Position numbers and translations under genes: made by a program. 64,000 nt of DNA, from assembly GCF_900240385.1 (NCBI RefSeq), contig NZ_OEQH01000002.1, positions 508,488 through 572,487 on the forward strand, in the 5' to 3' direction. Each line of letters opens with the position of its first letter. Positions within the stretch are counted from its first letter, which is position 1. Positions 8,794 to 61,808 of this stretch are shown here, in pieces. This stretch comes from Clostridium minihomine (GTDB lineage: Bacteria; Bacillota; Clostridia; Oscillospirales; Acutalibacteraceae). Under the pieces are notes generated by a model. The model made no database searches and was not told the DNA's origin. It was given only the letters and a program-made list of their open reading frames with translations.

Positions 8794-8970
8794 GCTATCA
8801 CCTGATTCTCCCCACTGTAACTGAATTATTTTTCGTCACGCTTATTTTTGCCAACACTTCTTCTATAAAAATCAGAAAAGCCATTTTTATGGCCTGTCCT
8901 CTCCGATACTCTAGTTATCATTTCATATTTCCTTTGCCGCTAAACACTCTAAGCAGGCATACGGTGCGAG
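8794..8970. other. lepA upstream region
   Basis: Divergent spacer between lepA and the repeat array. On the minus strand a small hairpin with GCCAT/ATGGC arms (about 8880-8895) followed by TTTTCTGATTTTT looks like a weak terminator or attenuator. No strong promoter could be read. Confidence 0.3.
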
Positions 8971-9735
8971 GTTATTGAAACCATAATCTTCCCTTTAGGC
9001 CGTAATCTTAAAACCGCAAAACCTTAAAATTAAGCCGGGCTATGGTGCAATGTTCTCTCAGCCGCCAAAAGCTTTCGCTTTTGTCTGCGGCGTGAGGTTA
9101 TTGAAACCATAATCTTCCCTTTAGGCCGCAATCTTAAAACCGCAAAACCTTAAAATTCAGCCGGGCTATGGTGCAATGTTCTCTCAGCCGCCAAAAGCTT
9201 CCGCTTTTGTCTGCGGCGTGAGGTTATTTAAACCATATTCTTCCCTTTAGGCCGCAATCTTAAAACCGCAAAACCTTAAAATTCAGCCGGGCTATGGTGC
9301 AATGTTCTCTCAGCCGCCAAAAGCTTCCGCTTTTGTCTGTGGCGTGAGGTTATTTAAACCATACTCTTCACTTGACCCCACAATTTTAAACACTGCAAAA
9401 CCATAATATCCAGCCGAGCTATGGTGCAATGTTCTCTCAGCCGCCAAAAACTTCCGCTTTTGTCTGCGGCGTGAGGTTATTGAAACCATATTCTTCACTT
9501 TAGGCCGCAATCTTAACAAACCGCAAAATCTTAAAATTCAGCCGAGCTATGGTGCAATGTTCTCTCAGCCGCCAAAAGCTTCCGCTTTTGTCTGCGGCGT
9601 GAGGTTATTGAAACCATATTCTTCACTTTAGGCCGCAATCTTACAAACCGCAAAACCTTAAAATTCAGCCGAGCTATGGTGCAATGTTCTCTCAGCCGCC
9701 AAAAGCCCTGCTTTTGTCTGCGGCGTGAGGTTATT
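8971..9735. repeat. Six tandem 126-bp intergenic repeats
   Basis: Units begin with GTTATTgAAACCAT at 8971, 9097, 9223, 9349, 9476 and 9604, and a seventh boundary is at 9730. Spacing is 126-128 bp. Copies are roughly 90% identical. Each unit carries a stable hairpin (GCCGCcAAAAGC / GCTTTTgtctGCGGC) and a possible closing stem ACCATA / TATGGT. No ORF is conserved across units. The array fills the divergent region between lepA and gerA and ends just before the gerA promoter region. Confidence 0.95.
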
Positions 9736-14045: not shown

Positions 14046-15191
<1,146 letters not shown>

Positions 15192-15360
15192 ACCTTCCTC
15201 TCGAGAAACAATTCTGCATTCAGATAAAACAAACCAATCTTCTCCGTTGTACTTTCATTTTTTAGCTTCTGCCTCAGCTTATCCGTTTTGGATCAGCGGG
15301 GGCAGTTGTCTTTTTCCCCATAGCAGCAAGTCCACAATCTTTGATTATAAAGCAATATAA

Positions 15361-17640
<2,280 letters not shown>

Positions 17641-60787: not shown

Positions 60788-61028
60788 AAATATCACCCAT
60801 AATATAAAAATTTAATTTGTGGATTAATTTTTGGTTCGATTATATCGCCCTATCAGAATATACGCAAATATTCTTTGACCCCTTTCGCGCCTTCGGCGGC
60901 AAACCCTTTGGTTTGAGCGATAAGAACAACCTATCCGTTCCCCGCATCCAAAAGGGGTTCTCACCCCAACGGACGTACCAGCTTTTTGAAATAAAAAAAT
61001 AGGACAAAGCAAAAAGCCTTGTCCTGTT

Positions 61029-61054
61029 TGGCGCGCCCGAAGGGATTCGGGCGC
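61029..61054 (-). other. tRNA-like minihelix, copy 1
   Basis: Minus strand GCGCCCGAA-TCCC-TTCGGGCGC then G-CCA: a 9-bp stem with a 4-nt loop ending in the discriminator and CCA of tRNA-Arg. The 3' strand is the real tRNA 3' end; the 5' strand is a complementary sequence not present in the tRNA. Same structure at 61209-61234 and 61390-61415. Confidence 0.55.
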
Positions 61055-61208
61055 ACAACGCCTTTTACGCCTTCGGCGACAAACCCTTTGGTTTGAGCGA
61101 TAAGAACAACCCATCCGCTCCTCGCATCCAAAAGGGGTTCTCACCCCAACGAACGCACCAGCTTTTTGAAATAAAAAAACAGGACAAAGCAAAAAGCCTT
61201 GTCCTGTT

Positions 61209-61234
61209 TGGCGCGCCCGAAGGGATTCGGGCGC
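61209..61234 (-). other. tRNA-like minihelix, copy 2
   Basis: Same 26-nt structure as at 61029-61054; 9-bp stem, discriminator G and CCA. Confidence 0.55.
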
Positions 61235-61389
61235 ACAACGCCTTTCGCGCCTTCGGCGGCGAACCCTTTGGTTTGAGCGATAAGAACAGCCTATCCGCTC
61301 CCCGCATCCAAAAGGGGTTCTCACCCCAACGGACGCACCAGTTTTTTGAAATAAAAAAAACAGGACAAAGCAAAAAGCCTTGTCCTGTT

Positions 61390-61415
61390 TGGCGCGCCCG
61401 AAGGGATTCGGGCGC
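61390..61415 (-). other. tRNA-like minihelix, copy 3
   Basis: Same 26-nt structure as at 61029-61054, the copy nearest to the tRNA. Confidence 0.55.
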
Positions 61416-61532
61416 ACAACGCCTTTCGCGCCTTCGGCGGCAAACCCTTTGGTTTCAGCGATAAGAACAACCTATCCGCTCCCCGCATCCAAAAGGGATT
61501 CTCACCCCAACGGACGCACCAGCTTTTTGAAA

Positions 61533-61569
61533 TAAAAAAACAGGACAAAGCAAAAAGCCTTGTCCTGTT
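61533..61569 (-). terminator. tRNA-Arg terminator
   Basis: Minus strand AACAGGACAAgGC / GCtTTGTCCTGTT stem, then TTTTTTTA, immediately after the CCA. Copied in each 180-bp unit. Confidence 0.85.
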
Positions 61570-61646
61570 TGGCGCGCCCGAAGGGATTCGAACCCCTGAC
61601 CTTCTGATTCGTAGTCAGACACTCTATCCAGCTGAGCTACGAGCGC
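61570..61646 (-). tRNA. tRNA-Arg (anticodon ACG)
   Basis: 77-nt cloverleaf on the minus strand, reading 5' GCGCTCGTAGCTCAGCTGGA. Acceptor stem GCGCTCG / CGGGCGC (one U-G), D arm AGCTCAGCTGGATAGAGT, anticodon loop with ACG in CTGACTACGAATCAG, T arm GGGGTTCGAATCCC, encoded CCA. The anticodon ACG, with A34 edited to inosine, reads CGU/CGC/CGA. Confidence 0.97.
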
Positions 61647-61808
61647 AAATTCAATTGCATGTCCCAATTTGAAACAGCTTTATTATTATAGTCAACAACG
61701 CGGAAAAAGTCAAGATATAATTAAAATTATTTTTATGGTTTATTTGGCCGGTAAAAATACCGGCCAAATTCCAGAACGGACAAGCAACCTACTTTGCCTC
61801 AGAAAATT

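Follow-up and report, generated by a model that had tools for sequence, protein, structure and literature searches.

The window, a 64,000-nucleotide stretch of a Clostridium minihomine contig (NZ_OEQH01000002.1, positions 508,488 to 572,487), carries a tRNA-Arg(ACG) gene followed directly by a tandem array of non-coding repeats. Tandem Repeats Finder placed this array at 60881-61590, with a period of 180, 3.9 copies, 95% matches, and a score of 1313. Three full units and one truncated unit lie 3' of the tRNA gene (180, 181, 180, and ~148 bp); the units are 95 to 97% identical to one another and regularly spaced. The direct gene neighbors of the array encode a dCTP deaminase and an alpha-amylase family enzyme. 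The features of the locus are listed below.

61685-61713, minus strand: promoter-like site of tRNA-Arg, TTGACT-17 nt-TATAAT, 11 of 12 consensus matches (a consensus match only)
61570-61646, minus strand: tRNA-Arg(ACG), CCA encoded (ARAGORN; Rfam RF00005, 66 bits)
61538-61570, minus strand: intrinsic terminator directly 3' of the tRNA, with identical or near-identical copies at 61358-61390, 61177-61209, and 61001-61025
61390-61569, minus strand: unit 1, 180 nt, CCA to CCA
61209-61389, minus strand: unit 2, 181 nt
61029-61208, minus strand: unit 3, 180 nt
60881-61028, minus strand: unit 4, truncated, ~148 nt, without the tRNA-tail copy
61495-61512, minus strand: R', degenerate inverted copy of the tRNA T-arm, CGTTGGGGTGAGAATCCC in unit 1
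61314-61327, 61134-61147, and 60954-60967, minus strand: R' in units 2 to 4, GGGGTGAGAACCCC
61390-61410, minus strand: R2, direct copy of the last 21 nt of tRNA-Arg, with further copies at 61209-61229 and 61029-61049
61394-61415, minus strand: perfect 9-bp palindrome GCGCCCGAATCCCTTCGGGCGC, overlapping R2, also at 61213-61234 and 61033-61054

A sequence-only reading of this DNA had described copies of the tRNA's own 3' end, in units of about 180 bp, behind tRNA-Arg(ACG). These copies are real: the 3' end of each of the three full units (CGAATCCCTTCGGGCGCGCCA) is identical to the tRNA-Arg tail at 21 of 21 nt and ends in CCA. The terminator copy that the same reading assigned to each unit is also present, although its position had to be corrected; it lies at the 5' start of the unit, right after a tRNA-tail copy, and the repeating module therefore runs from CCA to CCA. 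In the direction of the tRNA gene, the order within a unit is terminator, degenerate inverted T-arm (CGTTGGGGTGAGAACCCC), hairpin-rich spacer, and 21-nt tail copy. The terminator hairpin opens all four units, with a stem of 14 bp in three and of 10 bp in the fourth, and a 40-nt copy including its tail folds at -20.3 kcal/mol (z-score, -7.1). The inverted T-arm copy (TTGGGGTGAGAACCCC), found in every unit, was absent from the earlier account. Taken alone, it does not rise above chance in this array, and it was recognized here by its position together with a TGAGAA form common to Escherichia coli tyrT.

Each complete unit also contains a hairpin, GCGCCCGAA-TCCC-TTCGGGCGC, with a z-score of -5.7 relative to shuffles, which had been read as an acceptor-like minihelix with a 9-bp stem, discriminator G, and CCA. 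The stem occurs in every complete unit, but the free overhang does not survive as the best fold. In the minimum-energy fold the minihelix has 11 bp, G73 and C74 are paired, and CA alone is single stranded, so that an overhang of discriminator G plus CCA is only one possible form. Moreover, a mismatch interrupts the stem of the sister species (G001), and the sequence ahead of the tail copy is unrelated in most of the other relatives. We therefore regard the minihelix as a local detail and, given that it is not conserved in relatives, as a poor mimic of an acceptor end, which would combine a stable stem and a free discriminator and CCA with conservation. With a stem that is imperfect in the sister species and absent in most relatives, and a CCA that is partly hidden, the suggestion of a functional tRNA mimic is not supported.

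Spurious open reading frames of 102 to 197 amino acids cross the array on both strands (window positions 60824-61464). A protein-coding reading was rejected: the frames span the repeats in several registers, and the longest is without a Pfam match. When the window and 16 related loci were scanned with Rfam, only tRNAs and one TPP riboswitch were reported, and low-threshold matches to the array all fell under gathering scores. A phage search with the unit gave zero matches. Elsewhere in the window, a second non-coding tandem array (8968-9735; period of ~126 bp, 6 copies, 93% matches) separates a LepA-like gene from a spore-germination-like (GerA) gene, with no tRNA nearby and no tRNA-tail copy, and long repeats with a 27/54-bp period at 14199-17123 resemble collagen-like Gly-X-Y coding repeats.

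Related modules in Clostridia and the gain and loss of units

Within the genome that holds the window (G000), we surveyed tRNAs having at least 60 nt of flank of their own for downstream tail copies at a threshold of 14/16 or better. Two of 25 tRNAs, Arg(ACG) and Gly(CCC), had a copy of their own tail, and a reversed-sequence control yielded none. The array behind tRNA-Gly(CCC) consists of three units of 162 to 166 bp. The sister species carries units behind both of these tRNAs; its Arg unit is 73% identical to that of the window's genome, with a tail copy identical at 21 of 21 nt.

When genomes of the family were searched (300 in all), repeated copies of the tRNA-Arg(ACG) tail, ~150 to 240 bp apart, turned up in a dozen of them, representing ten genera. 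The same plan of terminator, inverted local T-arm, core, and direct local tail lies behind many tRNA species, singly or in tandem, and a search with one unit reached loci behind Arg(CCG), Lys, Pro, Tyr, Thr, Val, and Ser tRNAs as well as tmRNA (inverted copy only). Tail copies were found at 7 of 24 surveyed tRNAs in one genome (G191). None were found among the 30 best-scoring tRNA loci in each of G010 (same family), G044 (same order), and G344 (same phylum), which makes the trait patchy. In one relative (L113 in G026, positions 1606-1955), a module of the same kind lies behind a tmRNA gene and contains 17 nt of the tmRNA 3' end as an inverted copy; the pattern is therefore not limited to tRNAs.

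An exact 32-nt core retrieved 27 stretches in GTDB genomes, all from Clostridia by their titles. The core also stands behind a tRNA-Leu in Ruminococcus sp. FMBCY1 (L194), at the end of the stretch analyzed. Nineteen of 28 core sites lay 64 to 88 nt downstream of a tRNA CCA, compared with 0.9% expected within 130 nt under random placement in these stretches, and several of the remaining sites were at a contig edge or in second units of an array. In 12 of the 17 testable loci found in this way, the tail copy matches the tRNA beside it with a P value of 0.02 or less, and this result is unbiased because the loci were found by the core alone. In a larger set of 42 modules, chosen partly by the tail copy itself, the local tRNA was the best or tied-best fit to the tail in nearly all. 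The inverted copy was locally specific, meaning that a fraction of at most 0.05 of other tRNAs matched as well, in 18 of the 42. Inverted copies span tRNA nucleotides ~51 to 67 or 54 to 70, and direct copies run from nucleotide ~55, 58, or 63 to 76. Neither the window's genome nor any of 398 genomes sampled across the phylum, few of them from the window's family, contains the shared core hairpin; the window array is thus a member of the wider anatomical class but not of the core subfamily. At three loci (L119, L128, and L135), related AAAACAGTCCGGGGGACTGTTTT hairpins lie away from tRNAs, as parts of other intergenic repeats. In addition, five draft contigs (L050, L051, L071, L072, and L096) end 1 to 290 bases after tRNA-Arg(ACG), which suggests that assemblies break at unresolved arrays and that units are undercounted.

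Several pairs of loci differ by whole units. In L073, the tRNA is followed directly by a sequence X, and in L008, of the same genus, one whole unit stands between the tRNA and X; the shared sequence, which starts right after the CCA, is 83.5% identical over 91 nt. In another genus, L079 starts with a terminator, T2, adjoining the same downstream gene as T2 in L077, where a different terminator and a unit precede it. Finally, the unit order in G256 is Ta, Ta, truncated Tb, and G026 has Tb first. The changes at the tRNA-proximal junction thus consist in the gain or loss of entire CCA-to-CCA units, although the filled and empty pairs do not distinguish insertion from deletion. One locus (L171, CALZCU010000225.1) is a mosaic in which a unit behind tRNA-Gly has a tail copy and a next inverted copy that fit a tRNA-Arg, suggesting either that arrays exchanged sequence or that the metagenome was misassembled.

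Origin and possible function of the units

We consider it probable that the array is, by anatomy, an array of tRNA-linked repeats (TLRs), the Clostridia counterpart of the E. coli tyrT, lysQ, and argV repeats. TLRs are elements located downstream of a tRNA or 5S gene whose last 18 to 19 nt they repeat exactly at their own 3' end (PMC8144298). The unit would then be a CCA-to-CCA cassette composed of a terminator, an inverted T-arm, a hairpin-rich spacer, and a direct tail copy. Unit number may change through recombination or slippage between identical tRNA tails, and the same events could keep the units alike. By analogy with E. coli, the array would be transcribed only when RNA polymerase reads through the terminators, yielding some RNA in which each tail copy may be treated as a 3' processing end. 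For the local match of both unit ends, our preferred idea is that template switching between nearby repeats might correct one to the other. In a broader form, TLRs would be widespread propagating cassettes and not an E. coli curiosity, with a portable core set between inverted and direct copies of the local tRNA or tmRNA tail and a copying process that rewrites these ends to the local gene. We put this forward only tentatively, as a doubtful generalization.

The sequence-only reading had also raised repeated integration and excision at the tRNA end as a source of the array, with att-like 3' fragments. In such a scenario, each small nonautonomous or decayed mobile element would leave a tail copy as its scar. 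Several observations fit: direct tail repeats flank each unit, filled and empty sites exist, and the unit order (Ta, Ta, Tb in G256 versus Tb first in G026) suggests that new units arise beside the tRNA. Integrative elements at tRNA 3' ends likewise create direct repeats of the 3' part of the tRNA, and integrase-bearing elements do use the same tRNA genes in relatives: a tyrosine-integrase-like C terminus, read from the translation, immediately precedes a fragment of tRNA-Gly in L083, and L074, L091, and L092 contain tRNA-Arg fragments of ~45 nt that extend from the anticodon arm to the CCA. At these loci, however, the array is distal to the mobile element, as its preexisting flank. The att copies of such elements measure ~45 nt and are tied to an integrase, whereas the units described here are non-coding, 150 to 240 bp long, and bounded by repeats of 14 to 22 nt without the anticodon region; the array is therefore not simply their scar. 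No integrase is encoded by the genes directly flanking the window array. Furthermore, one core family is found behind many different tRNAs, its ends fitting the tRNA in each case; an integrase of fixed specificity does not account for this. Mobile elements in these tRNA genes and the coming and going of whole units at the CCA junction lend the earlier proposal partial support, but integration scars are, in our judgment, distinctly unlikely as the origin of the array. Plain tandem duplication of the tRNA end and terminator, carrying no other significance, does account for how the present array grew; its units are very similar and regularly spaced. However, single units of relatives (L004, L008, L077, and L095) precede a terminator unrelated to the first, and the same core recurs behind unrelated tRNAs, so duplication alone cannot build the unit and is extremely improbable as a full account.

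A cellular function of the array RNA is unproven. Were the RNA under selection, the unit might act as a small RNA, derived from read-through and closed by helical pairing of the inverted T-arm with the tail, or the tRNA tails might serve as decoys for processing enzymes. Whole-unit RNA does fold better than shuffles (z-score, -3.2), and the module core is 91.5% identical between two species in which the adjoining, mostly coding downstream region is 77% identical. Exactly such a closing helix is drawn in the Rfam RtT model, between a GAUGAGAA segment, corresponding to the inverted T-arm, and the tail copy. The TGAGAA segment is present in the window array, but it forms a weak helix there with the tail copy (8 pairs if a mismatch is tolerated), and only 12 of 38 related modules reach a closing helix of at least 10 bp. 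Substitutions within hairpins (15 G-U versus 11 A-C pairs) displayed no strand preference and so provide no evidence of selection on an RNA. Given this lack of bias and the strong terminator that guards every unit, a selected RNA is possible but unsupported. In E. coli, a starvation phenotype of tyrT was subsequently ascribed to an open reading frame in the vicinity (PMC8144298). Overall, we regard a selected functional RNA as an unlikely explanation.

If the array is indeed made up of TLRs, their presence in a second bacterial phylum, behind many tRNAs and with both filled and empty sites, provides comparative material for studying how the unit ends acquire their fit to the neighboring tRNA and whether the cell makes use of the RNA. 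On a practical level, these arrays create false open reading frames that could enter annotation as false hypothetical proteins, and they may break assemblies at tRNA genes.

Comparison with the tRNA-linked repeats of E. coli

Knowledge of TLRs in E. coli dates from 1978 (original work of 1978 to 1999, via PMC8144298); the 22 TLRs there, at ten loci, are without known function (PMC8144298). They are transcribed and processed, yet no function has been proven; three TLRs linked to 5S genes are transcribed by terminator read-through, processed, and bound by Hfq and CsrA (PMC8144298). Our literature searches found no report of such repeats in Clostridia and, in the literature searched, no description of TLRs outside Gammaproteobacteria.

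The covariance model for RtT RNA (Rfam RF00391, 45 bits) had no match in the window array or the window's genome, with a positive E. coli control, and 0 of 60 relatives exceeded the cutoff. A 23-bit match in G033 was discarded; no tRNA lies close to it, and the sequence resembles a coding region. Since the model has no match over its cutoff in these genomes, it lends no support to homology with RtT or to common descent with E. coli TLRs, and, with an anatomy that matches in detail while the model is silent, we file the array as a TLR array on anatomical grounds and not under RF00391.

The likeness begins with placement. The units lie immediately downstream of a tRNA gene, as E. coli TLRs do behind tRNA or 5S genes (tyrT/tyrV with rtT RNA, lysQ/lysV, the lysT operon, argVYZQ, and rrnA/B/D 5S). 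The 3' end of a TLR equals the last 18 to 19 nt of its gene, and here the identity covers 21 of 21 nt in three units. One to five copies per locus and several loci per genome are the E. coli pattern, and the window's genome holds three full units and one partial unit behind tRNA-Arg and three behind tRNA-Gly(CCC). TLRs are in tandem at some loci, and at tyrT the period is ~180 bp; in strain K-12, tyrV has three 178-bp units with a tail copy identical at 19 of 19 nt. The likeness extends to the inverted T-arm, which is found in tyrV, lysQ, and lysV, and in tyrV (GGGAAGGATGAGAAGCT) displays the same TTCGAA-to-TGAGAA change as the window array. These three loci retain a longer inverted T-arm segment, unlike the TLRs of the K-12 lysT operon and argV/argY/argZ (L195 and L197 to L199), which keep just an 8- to 9-nt inverted tail partner.

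The spacers, on the other hand, are unrelated in sequence. In contrast to E. coli, each unit of the window array comes with a terminator of its own and, beside the tail copy, with a private hairpin, and tyrV has no evident terminator between units. A terminator does precede the repeat in lysQ, lysV, and rrnB (PMC8144298). The dual terminators of E. coli rrnB, with the RrB small RNA, are transcribed by read-through (PMC8144298); they lie behind 5S rRNA instead of a tRNA and are unrelated in sequence, but they share with the window array the succession of a terminator, a repeat ending in the 3' end of the upstream gene, and a next terminator. At lysQ and lysV of K-12, terminator, inverted T-arm (AGATTCGAACCT), core, and tail copy follow one another in the same order as in the window array.
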